In this document: positions 4,745-34,979 of the stretch, piece by piece
Layout of the letters: every line of letters starts with the position of its first letter
How positions within the stretch are numbered: position 1 is the stretch's first letter
From: a bacterium
GTDB lineage: Bacteria > Bacillota > Clostridia > UBA1381
Reading direction: 5' to 3'
DNA length: 36,052 nt
NCBI GenBank assembly: GCA_030536655.1
Contig: JAUNPN010000015.1
Span: 1 to 36,052, forward strand
Notes under the pieces: generated by a model
What the model was told of the DNA's origin: nothing
The model's input: only the letters and a program-made list of their open reading frames with translations
Databases searched by the model: none
Made by a program: the position numbers and the translations under genes

Positions 4745-6038
4745 GGTAATCGGCGCGGGGCTTGCGGGCTGCGAGGCAGCATGGCATCTTGTACATGAGG
4801 GAATTGAGGTTGAGCTGTATGAAATGAAGCCGAAAAAATTCTCGCCCGCGCATTCGAGCGAAAGCTTTGCGGAGCTTGTCTGCTCTAATTCATTGAAGGC
4901 GGACAGGATTGAGAATGCATGCGGCTTGCTAAAGGAGGAAATGCGTCTTTTCGGTTCGATAATAATGGAGGCGGCAGATGCTGCAAGGGTGCCGGCAGGA
5001 GGAGCATTGGCTGTTGACCGTGAGGTTTTTTCAGGATATATTACTGAAAAGATAAAGAAGCATCCGCTTGTAACGGTAATTAATGACGAGGTAACGGAGA
5101 TTAATCCGGACGAATATACAATAATAGCGACGGGCCCGCTGACTTCGGACGCACTTGCGGAGAAAATTGCTGAGATTACGGGAAAAGAATCAATGTATTT
5201 TTATGATGCGGCAGCGCCTATTGTAACCGAGGAAAGCATAAACAGGGATAAGGTTTTTAAAGCCGCTCGCTATAACAGAGGAACGGCGGATTATATAAAC
5301 TGTCCTATGACGAAGGAGGAATACACAGAATTTTATAATGAGCTGACAAACGCTCAGACAGCGCCTTTGAGGGAGTTTGAGAATCAAAAGGTTTTTGAGG
5401 GCTGTATGCCGGTTGAAGTTATGGCAAAGCGCGGATTTGAAACACTTGTGTTCGGTCCGTTAAAGCCTGTCGGACTTGTAAATCCGAAAACGGGTAAGGA
5501 CGACGCTTACGCGGTTGTCCAGTTAAGACAGGATAATAAGGAGGGTACGCTCTACAATCTTGTCGGATTCCAGACTAATTTGAAATGGGGTGAGCAGAAG
5601 CGGGTGTTCTCTATGATACCGGGATTGGAGAATGCGGAGTTTGTGCGTTACGGAGTAATGCACAGAAACACGTATCTTAATTCTCCCGGAATTTTAAATA
5701 AATATTATCAGATGACGGAGCATCCGAAAATATTCTTTGCCGGACAGATAACCGGTGTAGAGGGGTATGTCGAAAGCGCTTCAAGCGGTATTTTGGCAGG
5801 ATATAATATGGCAAGGCTGTTAGAGGGCAAGCCGATGTATGAGCCTGATGCAAAAACCTCGATTGGTTCGCTTGTGCTGTATATAAGCAGTAACGCTGCG
5901 GACAGACTGCAGCCGATGAATGCTAATTTCGGAATAATCGAGGGTTTAAATGAACGTATCCGCAAAAAAGCGGACCGATATAATAAAATTGCGCTGAGAG
6001 CGCTGGATATTATAAAAAAACAGTTGGAGGTAAATTAA
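4734..6038 (+). CDS. trmFO: Folate/FAD-dependent tRNA (uracil-54) C5-methyltransferase TrmFO
   Basis: TrmFO makes ribothymidine at position 54 of the tRNA T-loop, using methylene-tetrahydrofolate as carbon donor and FAD as reductant. The 434-residue product starts with the FAD-binding [13 protein letters not shown] motif, followed by the family signature [19 protein letters not shown]. The conserved [13 protein letters not shown] segment carries one of the catalytic-region cysteines, and [21 protein letters not shown] near the C-terminus closes the FAD site. The length matches the family. The ATG lies inside the end of topA (11-nt overlap), implying translational coupling. The gene is almost exclusive to Firmicutes and some other lineages that lack TrmA, which supports the taxonomic call. 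Confidence 0.96.
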
Positions 6039-10555: not shown

Positions 10556-13500
10556 ATGAAAAGTAAACTTTTCAAGAAAACCATTGCGTCAATTTCGGCA
10601 TTGGCAATGGTAGCTTCGACATTTGTCATTCCAATGACTGCAAATGCAGCTGAAACGTATTACACTCTTGATAATGAGAGTGCAACAGATACAACGGGCT
10701 GGGCGTCAGCTAATTTTCCGGATGGTATGTCAATAGCATCAGATTCAAATACTTCGATAAGCAAGTATTTTCTGTACAAGAACTCAACCGGAAGAGGTGC
10801 ACGTACCGCATATTATAATTTGCCGGCTGCAGCAAAAACCGTAGACGAAAATAAGAAAGCAGTACTTGAGTTTGATTTTGTGTTACGTAACGGAGGAACC
10901 AATGGCAATAACCAGATTGCTTTCACCAGTGAGACAGGAACACCCATAGGAAATGGTGATTATAACAAGCAAGACTATGTTTTGATGATTACTCAGCCGA
11001 AGGATAAGAGCGCTCAGTTTGCATTAAATGGAACAGATGTATATTCAGCAAATTATGCAAATGAAACATGGGCACATGCAAAGGCAGTTCTTGATTTTGC
11101 TCAGAAGGATGTTCTTGTAACAATCACGTCGCTTGATGGTTCAACAACATATTATGAAACCAGTAAGGTAATGATGGGAAATGATGCATCAGAGCTTACA
11201 CAAATCTTTATTAATGCGGCACGTGATAATTCATGGGCAGGTATTGATAATGTTGTAGTACGTTCGGTAGAGGACGGCGATATTGTAGGAACATACTATA
11301 AGGTAACATTTGATGTAGATGGTAAGTCAACGGTTAAGTCAGTTAAAGAGGGCGAAAAAGTTGAAGAATTACCGGATTCATCAAAGACAGGATATATCTT
11401 CAAAGGATGGAGCAAGGATGGCAGCGATACTCTCATGACAGGTGAGGATGTATTAGCAACTGCAATTACAGCAGATACAACCTTTACAGCTGTATATGAG
11501 GCTGATACATCATATATTGAGCCGATGGTATCGGCAGAGTTTACATCTTTCCCGGAAAATGGCTTACTTATAGCTGGGGCAGATGAAAATACAGCAGCCT
11601 CAAACCTTATCGGAATCAAGATTAACGGAGAGCTTGGTACAGATCTCTTGGCAAATCCGGATTCAAGAGTAAAAGACCTTGATGTAAAATATGAGCTTAA
11701 GGGCTTCCGTTGGGTAGCTTCAAAGAATGAACCCACAACAGATGTTATAGAGGATGAATACTGTGACAGCTATGGAAAAGTAGTAAAGAATGAGGATAAA
11801 TCAATTGACTTCCAGTTAAAGAGTCATCCGTTTAACTACTATGGTGAGGTTGTTGCAACAGTTACATATAATGGTCAGACATTAAGCATTTCAAAACCGC
11901 TTGCATATCTTGGAAATACTGCAAATCAGGCACAGAATGTAATTCTTCCACGTGGTGGATACATTGCAGACTACAACAGCTATTCACCGGATATGGTAGG
12001 ATATAAGGCTGCTATTTCACCGGACAATAAGACTTCGGTTGACCCTGTAACGGATAACTGGGCTGCATATGGCGGAAATGTTGGCAGAGGAGTGTATCTT
12101 GCAGAGGAAGAAGGAAACAAATTCCTTAAGATTAAAACAACAGGTTCAAACAGCTCGTCATTTGCAGCAAACCAGATCGAGGCTGTTACTGATACACAGG
12201 TTGTATTCAGACAGAAGGTACGTTTCTATAATCCGAACTCATCAATAATATTAAAGAGTGTTAATCCTGTAACATGGACAGCAGGCGAAGCAACATCATT
12301 TAGTGTTAATTTTACAGGCAGTGAATTAAACATTAACAATAATAGGATTACAGATGCTGCAACAGGAATATGGTATGAAATTATTGTTACATCAGACGTA
12401 ACGTCAGGCAAATGCTGTGCAATAGTTAATGATGCAGAAGGCAACAAGCTTGGCGAGAGCGAAATCGTAAGCTTTAGCGATGCAGGCTCTAAGACCCCGA
12501 CATACTATATGTACAGAACACCGGATAACTCAGTCGGCGAACTTGACTTTAAAGATGTAACAATATATAGGGCAGAGATGGATGGAGCTACATTAGCTAC
12601 AACAGCATCGGCGACAACACTTGCAATTCCGGAGGAAGGTGCTGCACCGTCAACTGCAAATCTTACAGTAAGTGCAAAGACAACCGAAGGTTATGAGGCA
12701 ATCGGAGCAGCAACATGGACAGTTGCAAATGATGCAGCAGGTATTACGGTGACACCGTCAGCTGAGGATTCACACATGGCAACAATCAGTGTTGATTCAA
12801 CAGCTTCAGCAGGAACAGCAACAGTAAATGTAACAATAGGCGGAGCAACAAAGCAGATTGATTTTACAATCACAGCTTCAAAGGACAGCATAAAGTTTGC
12901 TGACCCGGTTGTAAACAGCATTTCAATTCCGCTTGATGACAATAACACAGTAGTTTCATATCCGGTAAGCGTAATCGACAAGGATGGAAACGATATTGCA
13001 GGAAAGACAGTTTCACTTGCATTGTATGACCAGAATAATGTAAATCCGGTAACATTAAACGGTATAACGTTAGAGAACGGTGTTCTTACAGTAACAAAGG
13101 ATGCTGTTCCGACAGTTGTAACAATTAGAGCAACATCAACAAATTCAAATAATGAGGAAATTACAAATACAGTTAAAGTGACAATTCACGGATTGGCATT
13201 TGACTTAGGCACAGCTGATGAAGAAGCAGTTGCAAACGGCTATACCCCGGTAACTTCAACAACAGCATACAGCGAAAAGTTGGGTTATGGTATTGAGGGA
13301 GCAGCAACAGCAGGAGGAACGGCTTCGTTAGAAGATGCTGATACTGACTATCTTGAGGGTAACTATACATTCAAGGTAAATGTACCAAACGATAAGATTT
13401 ATAAGGTAACATTAAACTATGAGGGTAATGCTGTATTCGAAAAGATATCAACAGACCTTTCGGGTGTAGTAAGAAACAATGCTGCAATGGGTAAGGTTGA

Positions 13501-15670
13501 GTATTTGGCATTCGTACATGATGGTGTTCTTGACATAGGCTTTGATAAGAAGGTTTCATCAATAGTAATTGAAAAAATCGAAAGAGAAGCAGGTATTAAG
13601 CCGCATGTATACACAGTAGGTGACTCAACAATTGCAAACAACGGTTCATGGGCATATGTTCTCAATCGTGATTTCGCAAACTATTCAGAACTTGGACAGT
13701 ATGTAACATTCACAAATAATGGTCGTGGTGGTAAGAATCTTTCAAGCTACTACACAGGCGGCGAGCTTTGGGATAGAGTAGTAACAAACATTAAGCCGGG
13801 CGACTATGTAATGATAGGCGATATGGGTACAAACGGTATGGGTGCTGATTTTGAGGGCTCATTCAAGTATTATGTGGATGCTTGCTTGGCACTTGGCGCA
13901 AAGGTAATTCTCAACTCATATTCACCGCATGGAGCAGTAGGCGATTATGCTTCAGGCTATAACTCAGCAACTCAGAAATTCAATTCTTACAGACAGGATG
14001 CTTACGATAATATTGTAAGAGCAATGTATGAAGAAAGAAAATCAGAACTTGCAGGATTTATTGATATTGGTAAGAATGCAGATACTGCGTTTAACGCATA
14101 TGTAGATGATTATGCTGCAAACGGCTATGAATCAAGAGATGCTGCTGCACAGGCAATTATCTCATGCTTCGGTGACCATAACCATTACAGCAACGGAACG
14201 ATTGCTGCGCAGCTTATGATTGAGGGTTATAAGGGAACACCGGGTATTGTTTCAGAACTCATAAGAATTGTAAGTAATACAGAGCCGCAGCCGACAGCAC
14301 CGGCAGAAACAGCTCAGCCGACAGCACCTGCGGAAACGACTCAGCCGACAACCCCGGCAGAAACAGCTCAGCCGACAGCACCGGCAACAGATGATCCGAA
14401 CAAGGATACTGTTACTGTATATGCTGAGAATGGTGTTGCAATAACAGCTGAATATACAGAAAACGGTGCATTAAAGGCAATCAAGTCAATTGTTGATGTA
14501 GCAGACGGTCAGAAAGTTGTTACGGCAGCAGAGGGCGAAAGGGTATTTGCATGGGATTCATTATCAGGCATGAAGCCGCTTGCAACAAAGGAAGTATCAG
14601 CTTCAGAAGTGGTAGAGCCGACAACCCCGGCAGAAACAGCTCAGCCGGGCGGAGATGATGAACCGAAAGAAACAGCAGATCCGGCAGCAGAGGCAAAGGT
14701 TATCTGGAAGGCACAGAAGGATACAGCATATGCAGCGGGACAGGATTTAGGAAACGGACTTTCACTCGTATTCGGTACAGAAGATGGTGCAGCTCCGGTG
14801 TATTCTGATTTTACAAATACAGAAGAGGACGGAACTGTAACACCGATTACAAAGATTGTAGGCGGAGTAGAGCTTACAGGATATGTTTCAGCAACAACAG
14901 CAAACGGAAGCTGGTCCGGTACTTCTGTTGACCCGTCAAAGACAACGGTAATTAAGTACACTGCTGCGGAAGACGGTGTATTAACTGTATATCTTGATAA
15001 TGTTGGTACAGATAAGAAAATCTGTGTAGGACAGGAAGGCATGAAGAAGGGAGAAATTGAAGCAGCAGCAACTTACGGTACGGGAAATGCAATGGCATTC
15101 CCTGTAAACGTAAAAGCCGGAGAGTCATATTACGTATATGTAGCAGGTTCAAAGGGTCGTTTCTGTGGCGCTGCCTTTGAGGCGGGCGAGTTGCCGGTTG
15201 TTCCGGATCAGACTGATCCTCCGGCGTCAGAAATACCGGCGCCGCAGGACGGCGAGTGGGTTATGTCAGCAGCTTATAACTCTTGCCCGGCAGGAACAGA
15301 ACTGATGAAGGGACTTACCACTTTATTTGCCGATACAAAGAATAACAAAAAGTATCTTTCATCAGATGATAACGGAACCTTTAGTGATGGCGCTGCAACG
15401 GGAACAGCTTTAAAGTATGTTGCATGGACTGACGGTACATTAACAGTATCATTCACAGGTCTTGGTACTCCGGGTTCAACAGGACCTAAGACAATGTATA
15501 TTGTTCCGGAAGGCGGAAAGCAGACAGAGCCGCTTGCTTCAGTACCAAATGAGAGTACAGAGAAAATGGATGGAAGTATTTCTGCAGACGTAACAGCAGG
15601 TACAACCTACTATATTTACGGAGCGGGAACGAAGGCGTGCTTCAGTGGTGCATCATTTGTTCAGAAATAA
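10556..15670 (+). CDS. Large secreted multidomain protein with SGNH (rhamnogalacturonan acetylesterase-like) domain
   Basis: The 1704-residue product has a signal peptide cut near residue 31 (PMTANA). Beta-rich N-terminal domains follow. An InlB-type Listeria-Bacteroides repeat lies at about 247-317 (VTFDVDG...GYIFKGWS). Two Ig-like domains lie near 680-880, and a carbohydrate-binding-like module (FDLGTADEEAVANGYTPV) at about 883-1010. The SGNH esterase domain spans about 1015-1235: nucleophile Ser1024 in VGDSTIAN, block II NNGRGGKN (1054-1061), block III GDMGTNG with Asn1093, and block V DHNH (1207-1210). Proline/threonine linkers separate two related C-terminal beta modules (about 1382-1545 and 1566-1704). 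Related domains occur in pectin-side-chain deacetylases (CE12-like) of gut Clostridia. Block III lacks the usual GHND. No LPXTG, SLH or dockerin anchor is visible. The gene is monocistronic, and the substrate is inferred. Confidence 0.85.
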   Translation: MKSKLFKKTIASISALAMVASTFVIPMTANAAETYYTLDNESATDTTGWASANFPDGMSIASDSNTSISKYFLYKNSTGRGARTAYYNLPAAAKTVDENKKAVLEFDFVLRNGGTNGNNQIAFTSETGTPIGNGDYNKQDYVLMITQPKDKSAQFALNGTDVYSANYANETWAHAKAVLDFAQKDVLVTITSLDGSTTYYETSKVMMGNDASELTQIFINAARDNSWAGIDNVVVRSVEDGDIVGTYYKVTFDVDGKSTVKSVKEGEKVEELPDSSKTGYIFKGWSKDGSDTLMTGEDVLATAITADTTFTAVYEADTSYIEPMVSAEFTSFPENGLLIAGADENTAASNLIGIKINGELGTDLLANPDSRVKDLDVKYELKGFRWVASKNEPTTDVIEDEYCDSYGKVVKNEDKSIDFQLKSHPFNYYGEVVATVTYNGQTLSISKPLAYLGNTANQAQNVILPRGGYIADYNSYSPDMVGYKAAISPDNKTSVDPVTDNWAAYGGNVGRGVYLAEEEGNKFLKIKTTGSNSSSFAANQIEAVTDTQVVFRQKVRFYNPNSSIILKSVNPVTWTAGEATSFSVNFTGSELNINNNRITDAATGIWYEIIVTSDVTSGKCCAIVNDAEGNKLGESEIVSFSDAGSKTPTYYMYRTPDNSVGELDFKDVTIYRAEMDGATLATTASATTLAIPEEGAAPSTANLTVSAKTTEGYEAIGAATWTVANDAAGITVTPSAEDSHMATISVDSTASAGTATVNVTIGGATKQIDFTITASKDSIKFADPVVNSISIPLDDNNTVVSYPVSVIDKDGNDIAGKTVSLALYDQNNVNPVTLNGITLENGVLTVTKDAVPTVVTIRATSTNSNNEEITNTVKVTIHGLAFDLGTADEEAVANGYTPVTSTTAYSEKLGYGIEGAATAGGTASLEDADTDYLEGNYTFKVNVPNDKIYKVTLNYEGNAVFEKISTDLSGVVRNNAAMGKVEYLAFVHDGVLDIGFDKKVSSIVIEKIEREAGIKPHVYTVGDSTIANNGSWAYVLNRDFANYSELGQYVTFTNNGRGGKNLSSYYTGGELWDRVVTNIKPGDYVMIGDMGTNGMGADFEGSFKYYVDACLALGAKVILNSYSPHGAVGDYASGYNSATQKFNSYRQDAYDNIVRAMYEERKSELAGFIDIGKNADTAFNAYVDDYAANGYESRDAAAQAIISCFGDHNHYSNGTIAAQLMIEGYKGTPGIVSELIRIVSNTEPQPTAPAETAQPTAPAETTQPTTPAETAQPTAPATDDPNKDTVTVYAENGVAITAEYTENGALKAIKSIVDVADGQKVVTAAEGERVFAWDSLSGMKPLATKEVSASEVVEPTTPAETAQPGGDDEPKETADPAAEAKVIWKAQKDTAYAAGQDLGNGLSLVFGTEDGAAPVYSDFTNTEEDGTVTPITKIVGGVELTGYVSATTANGSWSGTSVDPSKTTVIKYTAAEDGVLTVYLDNVGTDKKICVGQEGMKKGEIEAAATYGTGNAMAFPVNVKAGESYYVYVAGSKGRFCGAAFEAGELPVVPDQTDPPASEIPAPQDGEWVMSAAYNSCPAGTELMKGLTTLFADTKNNKKYLSSDDNGTFSDGAATGTALKYVAWTDGTLTVSFTGLGTPGSTGPKTMYIVPEGGKQTEPLASVPNESTEKMDGSISADVTAGTTYYIYGAGTKACFSGASFVQK
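14288..14386 (+). repeat. 27-bp in-frame tandem repeats encoding a Pro/Thr linker
   Basis: Units start at 14288, 14315, 14342 and 14369 (the last partial) and encode QPTAPAETA-type nonapeptides. A further related unit occurs near 14615-14647. They encode flexible, probably extracellular linkers between the esterase domain and the C-terminal modules. Such repeats can change in copy number by slippage. Confidence 0.85.
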
Positions 15671-15806: not shown

Positions 15807-16691
15807 TCAAAATTTATTTTTAAATTTTATGTTAAGAATAACAATTGCAAAGATGATAAGACACATACCCGCAATTTTTTCGGTATCCATCGTTTCATGA
15901 AAGAATACCGCACCGATTACCGCCGCCGCAAACGGTTCAATCGCCGCCAGAATAGAAGCCTTTCCGGCTTCCGTTCCCTTAAGTCCCTTTGTATATAACA
16001 TAAACGGAATTACCGTGCTTAAAAGCGACAACCCGAAAACCGACCATATCCCTTCGGGACAAAGAAGCAGCCGCACGTTTGATATAACCCCCGAAAAAGG
16101 TACTATAAATACAGCTGCGGTTATAAATGTAAATGCGGTTATCGTTGCGGCACCGTATTTTTTTGCGAGAAATTTTCCGAATATACTGTAGAGAGCATAT
16201 CCAAAGCCTGAGCCTAAGCCGAGAATTACAGCCTTGAGCGATACGGCGCCGCCGCTTGAAGACGCTCCGGTAACCAAAATCAGTCCCGCAAGTGTTACGG
16301 CAAGTGCTGTTATCTTTCTTGCCGTAAGTCTTTCGTGAAAAAGCGGCAATGACATAAGCATAACAAATATCGGAGCGGTATATAGGAGCAGCGCCGGAAC
16401 TGCCGCTCCTCCTATAATTTCTATCGCCTCAAAATAACAGAAGTTGAACAGAACTATACTTCCAAGACCTGTTCCCAAAAACAGAGGTATATCTCGGATT
16501 TTTATATTCAGTCCGTCTCTGTCGGCAATCAAAAGATATATAACCATTATCAAAGCCGAAAAGAAAACCCTTATCGCCACAATTTGAAGCGACGTAAACC
16601 CCATATCCGCAAGACAATTTACAAATACCGATATTATTCCCCATAATATTCCCGCTGCTATTATACATAAGCTGTTCTTTATCTTAATCAC
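15807..16691 (-). CDS. EamA/DMT-family transporter
   Basis: The 294-residue protein has ten hydrophobic helices arranged as two five-helix EamA repeats. The first starts with AAGILWGIISVFVNCLADMG and the second near GSGFGYALYSIFGKFLAKKYG. This family exports or imports small metabolites, often amino acids or nucleotide-related compounds, and its specificity is rarely visible from sequence. The GTG start at 16691 lies 14 nt after the stop of the permease-kinase gene with only a weak AAAAAGGGC site, so translational coupling is likely and the exact start is uncertain. Its place as last gene of the hydantoinase cluster suggests transport of a substrate or product of that pathway, which is inference. 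Confidence 0.85.
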   Translation of the reverse strand: MIKIKNSLCIIAAGILWGIISVFVNCLADMGFTSLQIVAIRVFFSALIMVIYLLIADRDGLNIKIRDIPLFLGTGLGSIVLFNFCYFEAIEIIGGAAVPALLLYTAPIFVMLMSLPLFHERLTARKITALAVTLAGLILVTGASSSGGAVSLKAVILGLGSGFGYALYSIFGKFLAKKYGAATITAFTFITAAVFIVPFSGVISNVRLLLCPEGIWSVFGLSLLSTVIPFMLYTKGLKGTEAGKASILAAIEPFAAAVIGAVFFHETMDTEKIAGMCLIIFAIVILNIKFKNKF

Positions 16692-16705: not shown

Positions 16706-18826
16706 TTACTGAGCATTTATATATGCCTCTATATGATCGGCAAGCTCGTCAAGTCCCATACTGCTTGTATTTACGCACAGATCGTAATATTCGGGCTTAC
16801 CCCACTCATAGGTTGAAAAATAATTGAAATAGTATTCTCTGTTCTTTTCTTTTTTGTTTATGTAATTTTCTGCCTTAACTCTGCTCATATTTCCACGCTT
16901 TTCAACATTCTTCACTCTGTCCTCATAATTCGCCGCAACAAAAACATCTATTGTATTTACGCCCGCCTCGTTGAGAACGTAGTTTGACAGTCTTCCGACT
17001 ATTATACACGGAGACATTTTAGCAAGCTGAAGAATAATCTTAGACTGAATTTTAAACATCTTATCGCTTGTTGACGCATCATACTCCTTAGCCGCATAAA
17101 TGCTTCCTGCGGTAAGCAGATCCAAAAGCTCACTGCGCTGCATTTCTTCAACGTTCCTTACCTTGCTTTCGGAAATATTCAGAGCCTTTGAGGTATATTT
17201 TATCATATCCTCGTCATAGAAGGGAATATCCAGCTTCTTTGCAAGTATGGCGGCAAGCTCTCTGCCTCTGCTGCCGTACTGACGGCCGAATGTAATAATA
17301 AGCCTGTTTCCGGTACGCTCCTCGTATTCCTTTCCTCCGGTATATTCCGCCGTGCTGACGTCGACGTTTATCTCAGGTATTATATCATATCCCGCTTGTT
17401 TTTCGTATCCCGGAATTATCCAGTCTCTTCCGGCAGAAATACCAAGATATTCATTATCATAATTCGATTCAACCTCTGCCTGCGGAAATTTCTTAAGGTA
17501 CCACAGCTTCATCAGTGCAAAATATACAATAAAAGCTGCCGGGAAGCCGAAGAAATATCCGAAATCGGAAAAGATATTTGCAAGGATTGTACCTGCGATA
17601 AGAGCTGCCATACCGCAGAGGTTTATTCCTCCGTGATAACGATACTGTCCGTCTGATTTGTATAAATCCTGAACGTTAAGCCGGCGGCGTCTTATAATAT
17701 AGTAATCGCATATCATTATACCGGCAATTGCGGACAAAATCGAACCGAAATATCCCAGGTACGTATAAAGCTGATTCAATATGTTCCATGGCTGAACAAG
17801 GCAGCCGATAAGTCCCGCAATAATTACCGCGAGTTTATAAGGCAGCTTCCACCGCGCGCCGGCGTTTGTAAAGCACATTGCCGGAGGAACAAGGTTTGCC
17901 GCCGTATTTGTAGACCACTGTGCAAGAATAACCATTACAAGAAGTATCACAAGCGTAACGCCGGTTGCCTGCTGCTGAATAACCTCAACCGGATTCCAGT
18001 TTCCCGTGGTCTTAAATGAAATGGCTCCGATTATTGCTATAAAAGCTTCAATTATCGGAAGTGTGGCAAACTGCGGTATCCAGTTGTTAATATTTCTTTT
18101 AAACCAATTCTTTTCTCCCATAGGAGCCTTAAGGCTTCTCGTCATATTGGGAATATCCGCCGCAAGCGCAGCCCACATACCCATATTTGCGCTCATCGTG
18201 ACAAACCAATAGCTTGCGGAGGGCTGAGCGGGGTGATACCCAAGAATTGAGAAGTTCTGAAGAGCGGCAAGGTTATTTACCTTATAAAACATCCAACAGG
18301 TTATTAGTATTATGCAGGGAGCAGCAAAGGATGAAAACTTATCTATAGCTTTTATGCCGAGCATTGTATTTATAACCTGAAGAGCCGCAAAGATCACGAA
18401 CCAAAGAAACCAGTTGTCAATTCCGAACAACGCCATGGTAAAATAATTTATAGCTGTAGAACCTATATACGTATTTATTCCGAACCAACAGGAGGCTATA
18501 ATTCCCCTTGCCACGGACGGAAGATGGACTCCGCTTGTGCCGAAAGGCGCTCTTAAATACGTAGCAAAAGAAAGTCCGTGTTCAACGCCGATATCTCCGG
18601 TAAGACTTCCGATGAATGCAATTATAAGGTTTGCGACGAAGGTTGCCGATGCAACTCCTATAACGCCCATTTTTTCAATACCGCTTGCGCCGAAGCTGAA
18701 AACGGAAATTACTATTGCCATTCCTATCCATATGTTTGCAAATCCCAAGCCGCTCAAAGCGCGTCGTCTTGACGTGACAGGCAATACGTCATCCGAGATA
18801 AGCGTGTTTCTTTTATTTTCTTTCAT
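16706..18826 (-). CDS. NCS1-family permease fused to a cytidylate-kinase-like domain
   Basis: The 706-residue product has two parts. Residues 1 to about 455 are an NCS1 nucleobase/hydantoin:cation symporter with about 12 helices (LSGLGFANIWIGMAIVISVF, SCWFGINTYIGSTAINYF, AQWSTNTAANLVPPAM). About 50 polar residues follow. The last 200 residues (16706-17308) are a cytidylate-kinase-like P-loop domain of the Cytidylate_kin2 type: LIITFGRQYGSRGRELA at the phosphate loop, LDIPFYDEDMI, CIIVGRLSNYVL and a Lys/Arg-rich lid. NCS1 members include the hydantoin transporter Mhp1 and cytosine and allantoin permeases, so hydantoin uptake fits the neighbouring hydantoinase genes. The fused kinase domain is odd, and its substrate is unknown. 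I start at the ATG at 18826, preceded by AGGATGTGG; a GTG at 18835 is the alternative. Confidence 0.87.
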   Translation of the reverse strand: MKENKRNTLISDDVLPVTSRRRALSGLGFANIWIGMAIVISVFSFGASGIEKMGVIGVASATFVANLIIAFIGSLTGDIGVEHGLSFATYLRAPFGTSGVHLPSVARGIIASCWFGINTYIGSTAINYFTMALFGIDNWFLWFVIFAALQVINTMLGIKAIDKFSSFAAPCIILITCWMFYKVNNLAALQNFSILGYHPAQPSASYWFVTMSANMGMWAALAADIPNMTRSLKAPMGEKNWFKRNINNWIPQFATLPIIEAFIAIIGAISFKTTGNWNPVEVIQQQATGVTLVILLVMVILAQWSTNTAANLVPPAMCFTNAGARWKLPYKLAVIIAGLIGCLVQPWNILNQLYTYLGYFGSILSAIAGIMICDYYIIRRRRLNVQDLYKSDGQYRYHGGINLCGMAALIAGTILANIFSDFGYFFGFPAAFIVYFALMKLWYLKKFPQAEVESNYDNEYLGISAGRDWIIPGYEKQAGYDIIPEINVDVSTAEYTGGKEYEERTGNRLIITFGRQYGSRGRELAAILAKKLDIPFYDEDMIKYTSKALNISESKVRNVEEMQRSELLDLLTAGSIYAAKEYDASTSDKMFKIQSKIILQLAKMSPCIIVGRLSNYVLNEAGVNTIDVFVAANYEDRVKNVEKRGNMSRVKAENYINKKEKNREYYFNYFSTYEWGKPEYYDLCVNTSSMGLDELADHIEAYINAQ

Positions 18827-18904: not shown

Positions 18905-20683
18905 TTATTTTGACGCCCTTAAAGCTTCTGTAGCCGCAGCATCCACAGTCATCGACGCCGGGTCGATAACAACGCCGTATGATTTTTTTGCGTCCTCTAT
19001 GGTTGTAAAATCGTCAAGAACATCGCCCAAAACCAATTCGGGATCTCTCTCAAAAGGATTTCCGTAACCGCCGCCGCAGGGAGTACGAATCTGAAGCACG
19101 TCGTTTACTCCGAACTCCTCATCCGAAAGCTTAGCTTGGAGCGATACCGCGTCCGCGCTGCCGGGGTTCTTTGTAAGGCTTGCGGAATGTCCGTCCGCAC
19201 CGCCGAACAAGCCCTTCGGGGCTTCAATATGTCTGTCGCCCTCACAGGTAACAGTTCCCTCCTGCAAAAAGCGTGTTTCGCGGATTATTCCCAATCCGCC
19301 TCTCCACTTACCCGGAGCGACAAGTTCGGGATTAAGCTCATAACGCTCAACTCTGAGCGGATAATGCCATTCAATTTCCTCAATTGGTACGTTTCTTGTA
19401 TTTGCTACAAGAGCGTCGCAGGAATCGATAGCATCCTTTCCGCAGCGTCCACCGTAAGAGCCTTCATCAACCTCAAGGTATACCCAATATTCGCCTTTGT
19501 CTTTGTTAAAGCCGTTGTAGCTTACAAAGTGAATATGCGCGCTTGTACCCGCGGATACCCTGTCGGGCATAACATCTGCCAAAGAACGCATTACGCAGTC
19601 CGCAAGCAGATTTGCCTGATTAAATCTTGAGAATGACGCTCTGGGGAAGTTCGGGTTAAAAATACAGCCTTTGGGCGCGATAACTGTTACCGGACGTCTC
19701 ATACCATCGTTTTGAGGAATATACTGATGATAAATATCATCGTCAAGGAACAGAGCGTGCATAATGTAGCTTATCGACGTCATTGTCGTGCCCTCAAACG
19801 ACGCGTTAAACGCAGTGTATACCTCGTCCGCGCTTCCCGTAAGGTCTATTGTAACCGTATCGCCCTTGATAGTGGTCGTTGTGCAAACCTTAAGCATTTT
19901 GTCAAGATTTATACCGTCGTTGTCAAGATAGCCCTCCGCATAGTATGTTCCGTCCGGAACCTTTGCAATTGCATTTCTGAGCATTCTCTCGGAATAATCC
20001 ATCCAGTCTTCAATAGCCGAAAATACAGTTTCAATGCCGTATTTGTCAAGCAGTTCCGTAAATCTCTTTATACCGTGACGGGCGGAAGCAATCATAGCCT
20101 TTAAGTCATTCTCGTTCATTGACGGAGTACGAACGTTATCGAGAATCATTCTCCAAAGCTGGTCATTTCTCTTGCCCTCTTCATATATCTTTAACGCATA
20201 ATAAATTCTTGTTTCTGCATATATATCACGCGCAAATACGTCCATACCCGGAGTATGCGAACCGTTATCGAGAAGATGCGCCTGTACGCAGGAAAAGCTT
20301 ATGAGCTGACCTTTGTAAAAAATCGGGAGACATATATGCAAATCGGGAGAGTGCGAGGTTCCGTAGTAGGGATGGTTATGAATAAAAATATCACCCTCAT
20401 GAATATCCTCAAGCTTCCACCTTGTAAGAATACCCTTAACATTTCCTCCGATCGAGCCTACGTGCATCGGTGTGCTTTCGCTTTCGCAAAGCTGTCTGCC
20501 GTTTATATCGACAATACCCGCGCCTATATCCTCGGATTCGCGTATGATACTCGAATATGACATTCTGTAAAGTACCATACCCATTTCCTGTGCAATCATC
20601 TTAAAGGAGCCGCCCAGAACCTGCAAGGTAACCGGATCAACTTCGACTCTCGGGATATTTAACCCTTCAATCATCTTAGCCAT
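18905..20683 (-). CDS. hyuB: Hydantoinase B / oxoprolinase family protein (HyuB subunit)
   Basis: HyuB is the second subunit of ATP-dependent hydantoin-opening enzymes (N-methylhydantoinase, 5-oxoprolinase, acetone/acetophenone carboxylase relatives). The 592-residue protein shows the family's opening block (DPVTLQVLGGSFKMIAQEMG), the SESTPMHVGSIGGNVKG region, the metal-ligand-rich segment GDIFIHNHPYYGTSHSPDLH, and the C-terminal GGLGIIRE and PCGGGYGNPFERDPE motifs. The length is slightly above the family norm. The ATG has a GAAAGGAATG site and starts 25 nt after hyuA. Separate A and B genes, rather than a fused oxoprolinase, are the bacterial hydantoinase pattern. With the neighbouring carbamoyl-amidase gene, N-methylhydantoin is the most attractive substrate, but another hydantoin is possible. 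Confidence 0.9.
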   Translation of the reverse strand: MAKMIEGLNIPRVEVDPVTLQVLGGSFKMIAQEMGMVLYRMSYSSIIRESEDIGAGIVDINGRQLCESESTPMHVGSIGGNVKGILTRWKLEDIHEGDIFIHNHPYYGTSHSPDLHICLPIFYKGQLISFSCVQAHLLDNGSHTPGMDVFARDIYAETRIYYALKIYEEGKRNDQLWRMILDNVRTPSMNENDLKAMIASARHGIKRFTELLDKYGIETVFSAIEDWMDYSERMLRNAIAKVPDGTYYAEGYLDNDGINLDKMLKVCTTTTIKGDTVTIDLTGSADEVYTAFNASFEGTTMTSISYIMHALFLDDDIYHQYIPQNDGMRRPVTVIAPKGCIFNPNFPRASFSRFNQANLLADCVMRSLADVMPDRVSAGTSAHIHFVSYNGFNKDKGEYWVYLEVDEGSYGGRCGKDAIDSCDALVANTRNVPIEEIEWHYPLRVERYELNPELVAPGKWRGGLGIIRETRFLQEGTVTCEGDRHIEAPKGLFGGADGHSASLTKNPGSADAVSLQAKLSDEEFGVNDVLQIRTPCGGGYGNPFERDPELVLGDVLDDFTTIEDAKKSYGVVIDPASMTVDAAATEALRASK

Positions 20684-20708: not shown

Positions 20709-22781
20709 TCAATCATTGATATCTATTACAATTACGCCATAATCGTTTACATTACCCACACAATCGGGTTCGATAACAATAGTCGTATCCATCTGATTGA
20801 TAATAGCCGGACCGGGGATAACATCTCCCGCCTTAAATTTCGTTCTGTCGTAAACCTTTGTCGTCATATGCTTGGGCTTTCCGTCAACCTTAAACGTAAC
20901 TTGTCTTTCATCAATAACGGCAGCGGATATATCGCCGTTTCCTTTTTCAATCTCAATCGGTTCAAGATTTTCTATCGCTCCCGTACCGATTACACGAATA
21001 TTAACGATTTCAACCGCAACGTCGCGGAACGCACGTCCAAACTGCTTCTTATGGATTTCATGGAATGAATCCTTAAGCTTCTCTATTGTTTCATCCGTAA
21101 CATCGCCGCCTATTATGGGAACTCTCATCTCATAACCCTGACCCTCGTAACGGCAGTCGGCAACTCTTTGAATAACAATATTGTCATCGGTCATATTGTC
21201 CTCTGTCAGTCTTTCGTACGCTTTCTTCTCAAGAGCCGCAAAGTCATTTGAAAGTCCCTCAAGATTTGCGTTTGTTGAAAGCTGCATTTCGGTTTTTGAA
21301 AAATCGTACATAAGATCTGTGTTTACAAGACCGACTGCACATAAAGCTCCCGGATTAAGCGGAACGATAACGTTCTTCATACCCAATTCTCTCGCTACCG
21401 AACAAGCGTGGAGCGAGCCGGCGCCGCCGCAGGCAAAGAGCGCAAATTCTCTAGGGTCAAAGCCGCGTCTTACGCTTTCCTTTTCAATCTCCTGAATCAT
21501 ATTGTTATTCATTACGTCAATAATACCCTGAGCTGCTTCGTAAAGATCCTGTCCGAGAGGACTGCCTACCTTATCCATAATGGCTTTTTCCGCAAGCTCC
21601 GGACGAATCGTCATTCTTCCGCCGAGAAGCTTTCTTCCAAGCCTTCCTAAAATAATGTTGGCGTCGGAAACCGTAGGCTCAGTACCGCCTCTGTCGTAGC
21701 AGGCAGGTCCGGGAACCGCGCCCGCGCTCTGCGGTCCTACGCGGAAAAATCCGCCCTCGTCAATGTACGCGATAGAACCGCCGCCCGCGCCGATTGTACC
21801 TACGTCAATCATTGGAACCATTGCGGAGTATCCGCCGACCTTTGTATCGAGCAGATGCTTCATACTTGGCTTTAAATCCGCCAGTACTGAAATATCCGCG
21901 GAGGTTCCGCCTATATCCAAAGTAATAACGTTATTTATGCCTGTAAGCTTTGTTGTCCAAATGGCGCCCAGAACACCTCCGACAGGTCCCGAAAGCAGGA
22001 GATTAACCGGTTTTTTACGCGCGGCTTTTGCCGATGCAACTCCTCCGAACGACTGCATAAGATGGACCTTTGCGGTATAACCCTGTTCTTTCAGCGTCAT
22101 TTCAAGCTGTTTAATATATCTTGCAGTTGTGGGACCTATGTAAGCGTTAAGTCCTGTTGTTGTAAAGCGCTCATATTCTCTGAACTGCGGAAGTACCTCG
22201 GAGCTGACAGAAATGTATACCTCGGGATATTCTTCTTTTATTATTTCCTTAACGCGCTGCTCGTGAGCGGGGTTAAGGAATGAAAACAGAAAGCACACGG
22301 CAATCGCCTCTACCTTTTCTGCTTTCATCTTTCTTACCGCAGCTCTGACCTCATCCTCGTTGAGAGGTATAAGCTCGGCTCCGTCCGGCGCGGTAACGCG
22401 CTCCGAAACTGCGTATCTGTCACGTCTTTGGCAAACTGGATATTTCTGCCACGGAATATCTTCAACAATCGAAAAGTTAGTTGGTCTTTTATGGCGGGCG
22501 ATGTGAATAATATCTCTGTATCCCTTTGTAGTGATCATACCCGCTCTTGCGCCTTTGTGCTCAAGAACCATATTTGTTGCAATTGTTGTTCCATGGAAGA
22601 TCTCCTGTATCTCGTTATGCTTTATATTAAGCTTATCGCAGATGGCATTTATTCCCTCCATCATACCTATTGACGGATCATGCGGAGTAGTCGAGGTTTT
22701 ATATACCTCAATTTTTCCGTCGTCGTCTACGTATATAAAGTCCGTAAACGTACCGCCTACATCGACACCTATTCTTTTCAT
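20709..22781 (-). CDS. hyuA: Hydantoinase A / oxoprolinase family protein (HyuA subunit)
   Basis: HyuA is the ATP-using subunit that phosphorylates the ring-opened carbonyl with HyuB. The 690-residue product starts with the acetate/sugar-kinase phosphate motif (GVDVGGTFTDFIYVDDDG), followed by GTTIATNMVLEHKGARAGMI and RHKRPTNF. It also has the second nucleotide motif TLDIGGTSADISV and the family hallmark GAGGGSIAYIDEGG...GPQSAGAVPGPACYDRGG. All key motifs and the full length are intact. GAAAGGAG precedes the ATG. Its partner hyuB follows after 25 nt. The upstream gap of 124 nt to the amidase gene contains a terminator-like hairpin, so hyuAB expression may be set by read-through. Confidence 0.92.
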   Translation of the reverse strand: MKRIGVDVGGTFTDFIYVDDDGKIEVYKTSTTPHDPSIGMMEGINAICDKLNIKHNEIQEIFHGTTIATNMVLEHKGARAGMITTKGYRDIIHIARHKRPTNFSIVEDIPWQKYPVCQRRDRYAVSERVTAPDGAELIPLNEDEVRAAVRKMKAEKVEAIAVCFLFSFLNPAHEQRVKEIIKEEYPEVYISVSSEVLPQFREYERFTTTGLNAYIGPTTARYIKQLEMTLKEQGYTAKVHLMQSFGGVASAKAARKKPVNLLLSGPVGGVLGAIWTTKLTGINNVITLDIGGTSADISVLADLKPSMKHLLDTKVGGYSAMVPMIDVGTIGAGGGSIAYIDEGGFFRVGPQSAGAVPGPACYDRGGTEPTVSDANIILGRLGRKLLGGRMTIRPELAEKAIMDKVGSPLGQDLYEAAQGIIDVMNNNMIQEIEKESVRRGFDPREFALFACGGAGSLHACSVARELGMKNVIVPLNPGALCAVGLVNTDLMYDFSKTEMQLSTNANLEGLSNDFAALEKKAYERLTEDNMTDDNIVIQRVADCRYEGQGYEMRVPIIGGDVTDETIEKLKDSFHEIHKKQFGRAFRDVAVEIVNIRVIGTGAIENLEPIEIEKGNGDISAAVIDERQVTFKVDGKPKHMTTKVYDRTKFKAGDVIPGPAIINQMDTTIVIEPDCVGNVNDYGVIVIDIND

Positions 22782-22905: not shown

Positions 22906-23640
22906 TCAATCAAAGCGTCTTTCGTGCTTTGTGTATACTGATGGGTCGATACCCTCCAGGTATTTTACAACCTCGTCAACCGGAACGACATCCGCAAACT
23001 TAGCGTCCATATCGAAAAGGTTCCATTCAACAACGCCGGGAACTCTGTCGCCGACCGTACCCTCGGGAACGATTGTCTTGAATCCGTAGCCGGTTGAATC
23101 CATAACCGTATGTCTTACGCATGCACAAGCTGTAGCGCCCATTACTATAAGAGTATCAACACCGAGATATGTAAGAGTCTGCGCAAGATATGTTCCGAAA
23201 AAGTTGGAAGCAAATTTCTTGTGAATTACCGGCTCCTCCGGGCGGGGTTTCAGCTTCGGGTCGATTTCCATCCAGTCGCTGTTTATATCAAGTGTTGAAA
23301 GAGGAATTTTTTCGTCCCATCTGCCGAGATCCATCTGGTCGTTTCCAAGGAAGCCCGTTGTTGTATGGAAAATAGGAACGCCGGATTTTCTTGCAGCCTC
23401 CAAAACCTTTAACGCTTCCGCGCAAACCTCCTCCGAGTGGTCGCAGGTGAAAGGATGACCCTCGCTCATCCAAGCCTTAGCCATATCCACCGTAGTGATA
23501 GCCGGCGCTTTGCCGTAACCCATCTTTCGCATGAAGCCGCGTTCTTTGTATATCTTCTTAGCCTCGGCAAACGCCTTTTTTAAAAGCTCCTCGTCAAACT
23601 CATAGTTATCAACGAATTTAAAATCTTTATTCTCTGCCAT
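22906..23640 (-). CDS. Isochorismatase-fold hydrolase, N-carbamoylsarcosine amidase-like
   Basis: The 244-residue protein belongs to the cysteine hydrolase (isochorismatase) superfamily. The family triad is visible as Asp52 (ITTVDMAKAW), Lys141 or 142 (IHKKFASNFFGT) and Cys174 (GATACACVRHTVMDS). The long N-terminal extension and the spacing of these residues resemble N-carbamoylsarcosine amidohydrolase, which splits N-carbamoylsarcosine to sarcosine, CO2 and ammonia. Next to hyuA and hyuB this makes a two-step route from N-methylhydantoin to sarcosine, as known in creatinine-fermenting anaerobes. The choice among N-carbamoyl amino acids is inference. I start at the ATG at 23640, preceded by GAAAGGAATTG; an upstream in-frame ATG at 23667 has no such site. 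It is the first gene of the operon. Confidence 0.85.
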   Translation of the reverse strand: MAENKDFKFVDNYEFDEELLKKAFAEAKKIYKERGFMRKMGYGKAPAITTVDMAKAWMSEGHPFTCDHSEEVCAEALKVLEAARKSGVPIFHTTTGFLGNDQMDLGRWDEKIPLSTLDINSDWMEIDPKLKPRPEEPVIHKKFASNFFGTYLAQTLTYLGVDTLIVMGATACACVRHTVMDSTGYGFKTIVPEGTVGDRVPGVVEWNLFDMDAKFADVVPVDEVVKYLEGIDPSVYTKHERRFD

Positions 23641-23729
23641 AGTTATCAATTCCTTTCTGACATTCAAAATTGTTTCGATACAGTCAAATACTTTTTATCC
23701 GGATTTCTTATTCCCTGTAACTTGACATT

Positions 23730-23920: not shown

Positions 23921-23950
23921 TTATATATAAAATTATATCAGGTGATGCAT

Positions 23951-25447
23951 ATGAAAAATAATTCTTTTTCCGTTTTCGGACGAGTGATGAATTTGTTGAA
24001 TGTATCAACATCTGCAATGGCGCAGTCCCTGCATGTAGACGCAAGTCTTATCAGCAAATGGCGGACAGGAGCCAGAAGCCTGACAAAAAATTCCCCGTAT
24101 TTTGATGACGCTGCAAGGACACTCGACGAAAACTACAGCGGCGATTCACATTCCCTCGCTATACTTCTGCATGATTTCATCCCAAATGAAGAATACGACG
24201 CTTCCTCCGATACGCTTACGCTTATAACGCAGGCTCTTTCGTCAAGCGAAGATGTTTTTCCGCAGGAGTATGATATGATATTCGGAAGCGAAAAGACCTC
24301 TCATATGCTTTGCTTCGGCGGAAGCGGAGGCAGGCAAGAGGGTGTAAAGCGCGCTCTGACCTATGCGGAGGGACTGGACTCGGGCAGGGAAATCATAATT
24401 ATAGATTCGGAAGAATTTTATTGGCTGCTTGAGGACGACGGCTTTTTGATCCGCTTTGAGGATCGCATATACCGTCTGCTTGAAATGGGCTTCCATGCAA
24501 AATTTATACTTCATTATTCTCCGTCGGCGGAGAATTTCAGAAGATTTTTTGAAAAAATCAGCCCTGTGCTCTTTCATCGAAACGCAGAATGGTATTATTC
24601 GGCATATTATGACGAATCGGTTATGAATGTTTCTATGCTTGCTGTAAATCATTCGGTTATGGTTCTGGGGATCGCGGTAAACGGATTCGATTCCACTACA
24701 ATGATTTTTACGGATAAACCTGCAATAGAGCTGCACTACAGACTTATAAACAATATTATAGAAAGATGTACTCCGATTTTCTGCGATTTTAAGCCGGACG
24801 AGCTTTTATCTATTGTGGGGAATGCCGCCGCTTTCAGAAAAAGCTCGATTCTGTATTCTTTTCTGCCCGTACCGGCATTTATTGCCATACGTCCCTCGCT
24901 CCTAAGACCCATACTTGAGGATAACGAGGTTGACGATGAAACCGCGGAAAAGGTTATGAAGCTTAATCATGATTTCAGACTAGTGGTTAAAAGCTATAAT
25001 CCAAATCTGGGGAACAGCCGAGATACATTTATACAGATATTTCAGCTTGAAAAATTCACCAAAAGAGTAAAGCAAGGCTCCTTTATAAGCCGCAGTCTTA
25101 CAAACGTATGCGGAAAAGACATTGTAATAACTTCTCAGAGGCACGCTCTTGCCCTGCGTCATCTTGTGGATACGCTGCTTGTAAACGACAATGTCAGGAT
25201 CGTAATGGCGTCGGAAAAGGACTACAGATATATGCCCCAGATAAACTGTTGGGTAAAGGAAAACGGCTTCGTTCTTCAAATGGATACAAAGGGCTTTCGC
25301 GCCTGCGATGAAAGCATAGCGGTAAGCGCTGCGGCGATTGCGCTTGCTCACTGTGTTCACCGGGTGCCGCCGGAACGCAAGGAAAGGAATTCGATAATAG
25401 AATTTTTGTCCGAGCTTGCGGAGGAACTGGAAAAAAGCGAAACATGA
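23951..25447 (+). CDS. HTH transcriptional regulator with a large uncharacterised domain
   Basis: The 498-residue product starts with a Cro/C1-like helix-turn-helix (about residues 1-60; STSAMAQSLHVDASLISKWRTG). The remaining ~430 residues match no family I can name. They include a GSGGRQEGVKRALTYAE segment, a strand-rich REIIIIDSEEFYWLLEDDG region and a C-terminal half with several predicted alpha/beta elements. I see no membrane segment or obvious cofactor motif. It is divergent from the hydantoinase operon, sharing a ~280-nt control region, so it is most simply the cluster's own regulator, with the large domain sensing a ligand or metabolite. I start at the ATG at 23951 because AGGTGAT (23940-23946) is well spaced for it; GTG 23942 and ATG 23945 overlap that site. 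Confidence 0.75.
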   Translation: MKNNSFSVFGRVMNLLNVSTSAMAQSLHVDASLISKWRTGARSLTKNSPYFDDAARTLDENYSGDSHSLAILLHDFIPNEEYDASSDTLTLITQALSSSEDVFPQEYDMIFGSEKTSHMLCFGGSGGRQEGVKRALTYAEGLDSGREIIIIDSEEFYWLLEDDGFLIRFEDRIYRLLEMGFHAKFILHYSPSAENFRRFFEKISPVLFHRNAEWYYSAYYDESVMNVSMLAVNHSVMVLGIAVNGFDSTTMIFTDKPAIELHYRLINNIIERCTPIFCDFKPDELLSIVGNAAAFRKSSILYSFLPVPAFIAIRPSLLRPILEDNEVDDETAEKVMKLNHDFRLVVKSYNPNLGNSRDTFIQIFQLEKFTKRVKQGSFISRSLTNVCGKDIVITSQRHALALRHLVDTLLVNDNVRIVMASEKDYRYMPQINCWVKENGFVLQMDTKGFRACDESIAVSAAAIALAHCVHRVPPERKERNSIIEFLSELAEELEKSET

Positions 25448-30775: not shown

Positions 30776-32131
30776 ATGAATATTGTAATTATCGGCGGCG
30801 GTAAGGTTGGAAGAAAACTGGTTGAAGATTTCGCAAAGGAAGGACACAGCGTAATTTTAATTGATACCCGAGATGAAATCATCGAAAGAATACAGAATGA
30901 TTATGACGTTATGGGCGTATCGGGCAGCGGAACAGATATAGATATTCTGGACGAGGCGGGAATAAAAAACTGTGACCTTGCCGTGTGCGTAACGGATAAG
31001 GATGAAATCAATGCCCTTTGTGCGATTGTTGCAAAGAAACGCGGCGCAAAAAACTGCGTCGCAAGAATAAGAAACCGTCAGTATTTCCGTCAGCTTGGCT
31101 TTATGCGCGATGAGCTTGGGATTAATCTTATCATAAACCCCGAATTTTATGCTGCTAATGAAATTTCAAGAATACTGAGATTTCCGGCGGCAATAAAGAC
31201 TGAAACCTTTGCAAAGGGGAGAATAGAGCTTGCAGAATTGAAGCTTCCGGAAAGCCTGGAGGACAAGCCGATATTTGAGATTTATAAAAAATATAAGGTA
31301 AGGCTTTTAATATGTGCCGTAGCGCGCGGAGATAAGGTTATTATACCGAACGGTAATTTTGTGCTGATGCGCGGCGATAAAATTCATATTACAGGCTCAC
31401 ACGCTGATATAGCAAAATTTCTGAAGCTGGCGGGAATTGATAACCTGAGATTGAAAACTGTTATGATAATAGGCGGCGGAAGAATATCAAATTACCTGGC
31501 AACTCAGCTTATTGAAAGCGGTATGAAGGTAAAGATAATAGAAAGTAATCATGACCGCTGCATGGAGCTTGCCGAATATATTCCAAAGGCGAAGATCATC
31601 TGCGGTGACGGTACGGATCAGTATTTGCTGGACGAGGAAGGCATTGATACGGTAGACGCATTTGTGTCGCTGACCGGAATTGATGAGGAAAATATAGTAA
31701 TATCAATGTATGCCAGAATGAAAAAGGTTGATAAGGTTGTTACAAAAATCAACAGAATTTCTTTTGCGCAGATGCTTGATACAACAGGAATTGACAGCAT
31801 TGTAACTCCAAAGGATATAACAGCTAATATAATAGTAGGCTATGCGCGTGCTATGAATGAGGCCGACAGCGACCCGGAGGTTGTATCCTTGTACAGAATA
31901 ATAAAAAACAAGGCGGAAGCAGTGGAGTTTAAGGTGACGAGAAATTCTGGGGTAACAAACAGGGCGCTTAAGGATTTGAAGTTAAAGAAAAATATTCTTG
32001 TTGCCGCGATAGTAAAAAAGGGCGGCGGCAGAAGCGGAGTGCCGGACGGTAATTCAATGATAGAAGTAGGAGATACTGTTGTAATTGTCACTACAGAAAA
32101 ACTTAAGCGTCTGACAGATATTCTTGCATAG
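30776..32131 (+). CDS. trkA: TrkA: NAD/nucleotide-binding regulatory subunit of Trk potassium uptake
   Basis: TrkA is the cytoplasmic gating protein of the Trk potassium channel. The 451-residue product carries two RCK units. RCK_N Rossmann motifs are at the start (NIVIIGGGKVGRKLVEDF) and the middle (VMIIGGGRISNYLATQL), each followed by an RCK_C domain (LPESLEDKPIFEIYK; LKKNILVAAIVKKGG). Two units per chain is typical of TrkA and contrasts with the single-unit KtrA at 34980. The gene starts 6 nt after gpsA and trkH follows 9 nt later. Confidence 0.94.
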   Translation: MNIVIIGGGKVGRKLVEDFAKEGHSVILIDTRDEIIERIQNDYDVMGVSGSGTDIDILDEAGIKNCDLAVCVTDKDEINALCAIVAKKRGAKNCVARIRNRQYFRQLGFMRDELGINLIINPEFYAANEISRILRFPAAIKTETFAKGRIELAELKLPESLEDKPIFEIYKKYKVRLLICAVARGDKVIIPNGNFVLMRGDKIHITGSHADIAKFLKLAGIDNLRLKTVMIIGGGRISNYLATQLIESGMKVKIIESNHDRCMELAEYIPKAKIICGDGTDQYLLDEEGIDTVDAFVSLTGIDEENIVISMYARMKKVDKVVTKINRISFAQMLDTTGIDSIVTPKDITANIIVGYARAMNEADSDPEVVSLYRIIKNKAEAVEFKVTRNSGVTNRALKDLKLKKNILVAAIVKKGGGRSGVPDGNSMIEVGDTVVIVTTEKLKRLTDILA

Positions 32132-32140
32132 GAGGATTGT

Positions 32141-33583
32141 ATGAATTTTCGTAAGGTTCTGGCTCTGACCGGAAGAATGCTTATCGCAAACGGAATGCTT
32201 ATGATTGCGCCGCTGTGCGTGTCGATAATATATAAGGACGGACAGATACTTCCGTTTGTATATTCCATATTGATTTCATTCGCGCTCGGAGCCTGCGGAT
32301 ATGCTGCAAAGCCTAAAAACAGTGAGATATATGCGCGCGAGGGCATGATAATAGTCGCACTGACATGGGTTTTGTTTTCAGTGGTAGGCGGATTGCCTTT
32401 TTGGTTTTCAAAACAAATTCCAAGTCTGGTAGACTGTATATTTGAAACGGCGTCCGGTTTCACTACAACGGGTTCGACAATTCTTACCGATGTAGAAGCT
32501 ATGAGTAAAAGTTTGCTGTTCTGGCGTTCCTTCACTCATTGGATAGGCGGCATGGGAGTGCTGGTATTTGTAACGGCGATAATATCGGACAAAAATTCGA
32601 GAACAACTCACGTTATGCGTGCGGAGATGCCCGGTCCGAAAATAGGAAAGCTTGCGGCAAAGTGGCAGTTTTCTATAAGAATACTTTATGCGATTTATAT
32701 TACGCTGACAATAATAGAAATTTTGCTCTTGTTATTAGGCGGTATGAATATATATGACAGTCTGGTACATACCTTTGGCACAGCCGGAACCGGCGGATTT
32801 GGTATAAAAAATACATCAATAGGGTACTATGACAGTGCATATATTGACTACGTAATAGGCATATTTATGCTGCTGTTCGGTGTGAATTTCAATATATACT
32901 ATCTGATACTTGTAAAGCAGTTCTTTCATGTAAAGAATAACAGCGAATTAAAGCTTTACCTTTCAATCGTTGCGGGAGCATCGATTCTTATTATGATGAA
33001 TATAACTTATATTTACGGCTCGCCTTTAAAGGCATTTCGTTATTCTTTCTTTCAGGTATCATCAATTATTACGACCACCGGCTATGCGACGACAGATTTT
33101 TGCAAATGGCCTATGTTCAGCCAGATGATTTTGCTTGCGCTTATGTTTGTGGGAGGATGTGCCGGTTCAACCGGAGGCGGCTTAAAGGTGATAAGAATCA
33201 GTATAATGCTAAAATGCACATTAAATGAAGTAAAGAGGGCGGTAAGTCCGAGAAGCGTGCTTACCGTTAAGAATGACGGAAAACCGCTTGAGTCTCAGGT
33301 GGTTCAGGGTGTATCAATGTATCTGGTAGTATATGCGGTTATAATGGTTGTTTCAGTGTTAATTGTTGCGCTTGATAATTTTGATATGGCAACCACCATA
33401 ACTTCTGTAATAACTACGCTGAACAATATAGGACCCGGATTGGCGTCTGTTGGTCCTGCCGGGAATTTTTCGGAATTTTCTGTACTATCAAAGCTTGTGC
33501 TGACATTTGATATGCTTGCAGGACGTCTTGAGCTGTTTCCGATGCTTGTTTTGTTTACACCGTTGGCATGGAAAAAGATATGA
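32141..33583 (+). CDS. trkH: TrkH-type potassium uptake membrane subunit
   Basis: TrkH forms the ion path of the Trk system. The 480-residue membrane protein has four pore-loop repeats, each with a filter glycine: SGFTTTGSTIL, GTAGTGGFGI, ITTTGYATTDF and LNNIGPGLASV. The ~480-residue length and the CAGSTGGGLKV(I)R motif after pore 3 fit TrkH rather than KtrB. It follows trkA with an AGGAGGATTGT ribosome-binding site, so the pair forms one transport system. Confidence 0.93.
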   Translation: MNFRKVLALTGRMLIANGMLMIAPLCVSIIYKDGQILPFVYSILISFALGACGYAAKPKNSEIYAREGMIIVALTWVLFSVVGGLPFWFSKQIPSLVDCIFETASGFTTTGSTILTDVEAMSKSLLFWRSFTHWIGGMGVLVFVTAIISDKNSRTTHVMRAEMPGPKIGKLAAKWQFSIRILYAIYITLTIIEILLLLLGGMNIYDSLVHTFGTAGTGGFGIKNTSIGYYDSAYIDYVIGIFMLLFGVNFNIYYLILVKQFFHVKNNSELKLYLSIVAGASILIMMNITYIYGSPLKAFRYSFFQVSSIITTTGYATTDFCKWPMFSQMILLALMFVGGCAGSTGGGLKVIRISIMLKCTLNEVKRAVSPRSVLTVKNDGKPLESQVVQGVSMYLVVYAVIMVVSVLIVALDNFDMATTITSVITTLNNIGPGLASVGPAGNFSEFSVLSKLVLTFDMLAGRLELFPMLVLFTPLAWKKI

Positions 33584-33607
33584 TATATCGGGAGGACACA
33601 GACAATA

Positions 33608-34960: not shown

Positions 34961-34979
34961 TATGGGAGGATGATAGTAA

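Follow-up and report, generated by a model that had tools for sequence, protein, structure and literature searches.

An NCS1 permease fused to a C-terminal PF13189 kinase-fold domain in a clostridial N-methylhydantoin-type operon: a candidate regulatory tail

The window analyzed here, a stretch of 36,052 nucleotides from a clostridial contig, carries on its minus strand a single gene whose 706-residue product joins a complete permease of the NCS1 family to a complete kinase-like domain of the family Cytidylate_kin2 (PF13189). The original prediction had read the open frame this way, and the frame is intact with both Pfam domains present. Both domain families are known, but the literature searched has no earlier description of a transporter that bears this type of soluble C-terminal domain; open-access text yielded no published account of an NCS1 or MATE fusion to PF13189 or of a PF13189 transporter tail. 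We give about an even chance to the reading in which the tail is a cytosolic regulatory domain, sensing a nucleotide or other ligand, that unrelated transporters have recruited several times. The gene, its parts and its neighbors are as follows.

15807..16691, minus: EamA/DMT transporter, 14 bp downstream of the fusion
16706..18826, minus: fused gene, NCS1 permease plus Cytidylate_kin2 domain, 706 aa
16709..17308, minus: Cytidylate_kin2 (PF13189) NMP-kinase-fold domain, residues 507-706, P-loop GRQYGSRGR
17309..17443, minus: linker, about residues 462-506, with no in-frame start codon
17444..18805, minus: NCS1/Mhp1-like permease, residues 8-461
18905..20683, minus: N-methylhydantoinase B-type subunit (HyuB); PF02538, 1.1e-149; N-methylhydantoinase 7hk5, 6e-193
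20709..22781, minus: N-methylhydantoinase A-type subunit (HyuA); 7hk5, 2e-220
22906..23667, minus: N-carbamoylsarcosine amidohydrolase-like protein, isochorismatase fold; 1nba, E 2.5e-63
23942..25447, plus: divergent 501-aa protein with an HTH-like start, probable operon regulator

The reading frame runs without internal stops from an ATG at 18826, with AGGA 10 nt upstream, to a stop codon ending at 16706. Pfam assigns residues 16-423 to Transp_cyt_pur (PF02133; E 4.6e-48) and residues 510-688 to Cytidylate_kin2 (E 3.9e-48). The same domain pair recurs elsewhere: among 84,980 species genomes scanned there are six further full-length matches (L008 to L013, 69-81% identity), and the frame is open throughout in L008 to L012. 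L013, a Lachnospiraceae copy, has a single frame shift near residue 645, within the kinase domain (about 5463-5485), and an intact permease part; the shift may be an assembly error, or decay in which the tail is beginning to be lost. At three loci (the window, L008 and L009) the stretch that starts 70 codons before the kinase domain and ends 24 codons inside it contains no in-frame ATG, GTG or TTG, so there the domain is not an internally started separate protein. The linker evolves faster than any other part of the fusion, with pairwise identities of 0.48-0.66 across residues 445-506. Between the fusion genes of different loci, synonymous sites are saturated or nearly so; pairwise dN/dS, taken from unsaturated dS only, is 0.06-0.13 for the kinase part and 0.05-0.08 for the permease part, and these codon comparisons show purifying selection on the kinase domain. 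The conserved fusion copies, the low dN/dS and the missing internal start together indicate that both parts are inherited as one chain. A sequencing error joining two genes, which the original prediction had raised, would be in keeping with the partly metagenome-assembled origin of the compared genomes and with the frame shift in L013, but five independent intact fusions, synonymously saturated among themselves and lacking internal starts, already refute a frame shift or misassembly, and we put its probability close to nil.

The architecture is rare, being found in one of 391 sampled genomes of its class and one of 95 of its order. Because it is absent from the other sampled genomes of both, the fusion has probably been scattered across taxa by horizontal transfer; the G+C content of the operon (0.45) is not strikingly odd. 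Two apparent relatives were discarded. In a Photobacterium plasmid match (apparent query coverage 94%) the permease frame stops at 503 aa, leaving no fusion, and in the Bacillus locus L014, where tblastn had carried the match on to residue 659, the frame that follows encodes a short-chain dehydrogenase rather than a kinase domain.

The permease part resembles Mhp1 (NCS1; PDB 2jln, 4d1a), with which phmmer aligns residues 8-461 at E 1.4e-56. Its PF02133 match exceeds the family cut-off, while its score for the TIGR00800 subfamily (188 bits) is below the cut-off of 353. Foldseek gives a TM-score to Mhp1 of 0.85-0.87 by target length on a model of middling confidence, and the permease is predicted to have the 12-helix LeuT-type fold. 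The phmmer alignment retains S305 and T306, the equivalents of Mhp1 S312 and T313, which we take to be Na+-site residues, and Mhp1 topology would presumably place the tail on the cytosolic side. The whole-protein AlphaFold model (mean pLDDT 67, residues 451-493 below 50) is too weak to position the tail relative to the permease. Also retained are the hydantoin-site residues W114, W218 and N311, corresponding to the stacking Trp residues W117 and W220 and to N318 of Mhp1. The fused protein differs from Mhp1 in having N118 at Q121 and M217 at G219, and Mhp1 has no kinase-fold tail. Roles for all five of these Mhp1 positions (W117, W220, N318, Q121 and G219) are described in PMC4195764, Trp117 and Asn318 being hydantoin contacts.

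The tail scores 164 bits against PF13189, for which the curated cut-off is 28, and covers profile positions 1-175 of 176. Phmmer matches it to the structural-genomics kinases 3hdt and 3fdi, both solo PF13189 proteins, and an AlphaFold model of residues 497-706 (pLDDT 85) superposes on 3hdt with an rmsd of 1.6 over 163 (Z 22.3) and on 3fdi with Z 21.4. Bacterial CMP kinases (2h92, 2cmk) follow at Z 13-14 and about 12-17% identity. By this model the tail folds as an NMP kinase with 3hdt as its closest structure.

The active site is another matter. The Walker-A motif GxxxxGK[S/T] is absent from the tail, whose P-loop, GRQYGSRGR, has no Lys and has Arg (R520) in place of the preceding Gly. The Lys position is Gly in all 74 solo PF13189 relatives; one position earlier, 66 of them have Gly and the other 8 have A, N, S or D. 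The seven NCS1 tails have Arg (five), Cys or His there, so that a solo P-loop reads GSGGR and a fused one GS[R/C/H]G[R/K]; all seven also have Asn at the D615-type position. Most signature residues of the family are nevertheless kept, with R515, G518, G521, Y537, D538, G611, R612, R663, W675 and Y681 common to the NCS1 copies and all 34 aligned solo proteins. To judge from the alignments, the tail departs from the pattern of a P-loop family that is itself deviant, and for this reason "kinase" states only its fold. Nucleotide binding may be weak or absent, because the Walker-A Lys is missing family-wide and the Gly before it is replaced in the NCS1 copies. A role for the tail as the housekeeping cytidylate kinase is rejected, as the genome has a canonical Cmk gene at another locus; there are further solo PF13189 genes as well (L002, L003).

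The genes around the fusion point to its substrate. The order of the operon is N-carbamoylsarcosine amidohydrolase, HyuA (single copy in the genome), HyuB, fusion and then EamA, with gaps of 14-124 bp. HyuA and HyuB accompany the fusion in seven of seven loci, the upstream amidohydrolase does so wherever the contig reaches that far, and the EamA gene lies beside the fusion also in L008, L009, L011 and L013; the operon enzymes are mostly 84-93% identical across loci. None of these enzymes occurs within the stretches read around the closest unfused NCS1 relatives (seven loci, 31-47% identity). Since the neighbors are an N-methylhydantoinase and an N-carbamoylsarcosine amidohydrolase, the pathway would be that of creatinine and N-methylhydantoin; the hydantoin-type catabolic operon recognized originally is borne out and, from the 1nba and 7hk5 matches, is more exactly of N-methylhydantoin type. 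The permease substrate is probably N-methylhydantoin, or creatinine itself. Conversion of N-methylhydantoin to N-carbamoylsarcosine and on to sarcosine is known from a clostridium, Clostridium sp. FS41 (PMC4417704). The FS41 enzyme, however, is ATP-independent and only its B subunit gene was found, whereas the genes for A and B are both present here, and no transporter fusion was reported there. Sarcosine reductase (GrdB-type, PF07355) has no match in the genome, a profile that is silent in control genomes too. A reading of the locus as a defense system is rejected, as PADLOC finds no match there. The divergent 501-aa protein has no Pfam or NCBIfam match; its relatives adjoin the operon in L008, L009, L011 and L012 (33-40% identity), and they are possibly an undescribed regulator family.

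We know of no assigned role for the PF13189 family, and the open-access papers searched describe none; the family has matches in 372 of the 391 genomes of the class (a count that includes ordinary Cmk). A survey of PF13189 for long open frames shows the domain on other membrane proteins, C-terminal in every fusion found. MATE fusions occur at L058 to L061 and L116, and by full-length match at L066 and L068. An EamA/DMT fusion lies at L117 (1626-3263), with further such loci at L127 to L132; within one family, 7 of 17 genomes carry a DMT/EamA fusion at close to its full length. The DUF6198 (YczE-like) fusions at L125 (2245-3600) and L126 (2119-3603) come from two viral-collection contigs, with an integrase-like gene next to the fusion. 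In the related MATE fusions L116 and L118 the P-loop Gly is also replaced (GTAGK and GSVGK). A tree of 45 domains places the NCS1 tails in one well-supported group on a long branch, and the MATE tails apart from them, intermixed with solo proteins; this separation makes it likely that fusion happened more than once.

Solo PF13189 genes also tend to lie near MATE genes, at 11 of 75 loci (nine on the same strand, six of them within 15 bp) where about 1-3 would be expected from some 15 MATE-like candidates per genome, although the 75 loci come from high-scoring hits, some close kin, and an exact probability for the excess should not be pressed. At L123 the MATE and PF13189 genes overlap by 8 bp. 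The family is not only transporter-linked, since solo members are found beside UppP and SLT genes too. The solo gene directly precedes a uppP/bacA-like gene at L002 (in this same genome, C243), L004, L005, L007, L032, L044, L053 and L055, and the pair often follows an SLT transglycosylase gene, a second conserved membrane-linked context in this bacterial order. Another common architecture, of about 310-345 aa in total, is PF13189 followed by a conserved C-terminal region of some 100 aa (L119, 1462-2403; L120, 1031-1966), which has no Pfam match and looks by eye like a PD-(D/E)XK nuclease.

In the regulatory reading, the permease would be an Mhp1-type carrier that uses Na+ coupling to import N-methylhydantoin, formed from creatinine by deamination, and its C-terminal cytosolic domain would bind a ligand from the cytosol, probably a nucleotide or another metabolite that carries phosphate. 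Closing and opening of the tail would alter permease activity, and N-methylhydantoin uptake would thereby follow the energy or nucleotide state of the cell. The tail would probably derive from a free PF13189 protein, other members having joined unrelated transporters independently. We infer the substrate, the cytosolic side, the ligand binding and the regulation alike. A precedent is the K+ importer KimA (PDB 8b70), a Foldseek match of the whole fusion model: this symporter is inactivated by the nucleotide second messenger c-di-AMP (PMC10284832). KimA belongs to a different transporter family, and the tail of the present protein is an NMP-kinase fold with a putative ligand.

Of the two functions suggested originally, the better candidate is still that a nucleotide-binding domain gates the transporter; import coupled to phosphorylation is not supported. 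An active tail might phosphorylate the imported compound, or a nucleotide derived from it, and so trap it in the cell; the NMP-kinase fold and the residues conserved in 34 of 34 solo proteins and the NCS1 copies speak for such channeling. But the next two enzymes, by homology, use unphosphorylated N-methylhydantoin and N-carbamoylsarcosine, the P-loop is eroded in the fusion clade, and MATE and DMT proteins, whose families mostly export, carry this tail too. N-methylhydantoin has, moreover, no hydroxyl group to phosphorylate. Given that the later steps of the pathway take the unphosphorylated compound and that the genome has a normal Cmk, substrate phosphorylation by the tail is unlikely, and we rank it third, as improbable. 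A regulatory input shared by the tails is favored over phosphorylation of cargo because the NCS1, MATE, DMT and DUF6198 proteins have no common cargo.

Ranked between the two, possible but doubtful, is a tail that is catalytically dead and binds no nucleotide, serving to dock a partner (e.g. an ATP-using N-methylhydantoinase) or to aid membrane assembly. Replacement of the P-loop Gly by three different residues within one clade, faster evolution of the kinase domain than of the permease, and strict co-occurrence with HyuAB would all suit such a scaffold; the acceptor-side and LID-type residues are still conserved, however, and at the loci read no HyuAB partner accompanies the other transporter fusions. 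Alternatively the kinase domain could have been carried along in a neutral gene fusion, having a housekeeping role of its own and being retained only for its use as a membrane-anchored enzyme. PF13189 is abundant enough in the class for this, and genes neighboring transporters can join by chance, but at least four families of membrane proteins have captured the domain, seven species have the fusion in one and the same operon, where the closest unfused NCS1 relatives never occur, and the genome has its other solo PF13189 genes; this origin we consider the most improbable of those weighed here, the joining artefact aside.

The regulatory reading extends to a wider proposal, which we hold tentatively and short of even chances: PF13189 may be a general regulatory module of bacterial membrane transporters, comparable to CBS, STAS or RCK domains, that senses a nucleotide or nucleotide-like signal and acts in cis (fused to NCS1, MATE, DMT and DUF6198 proteins) or in trans (as the next gene). 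If PF13189 does tune transporters, the family would gain a function and a new class of transporter control would be described. Many gut Bacillota carry PF13189 proteins, and a tail that governs uptake of the creatinine product N-methylhydantoin would bear on the use of host nitrogen waste by gut bacteria. The fusion puts the question of PF13189 and transporters into one testable polypeptide.

Elsewhere in the window, positions 10556-15670 (plus) encode a secreted-looking protein of 1704 aa that contains a List_Bact repeat along with several sections that recur, and positions 30776-35639 (plus) hold two tandem TrkH-type K+ channel genes flanked by two TrkA-type regulators.
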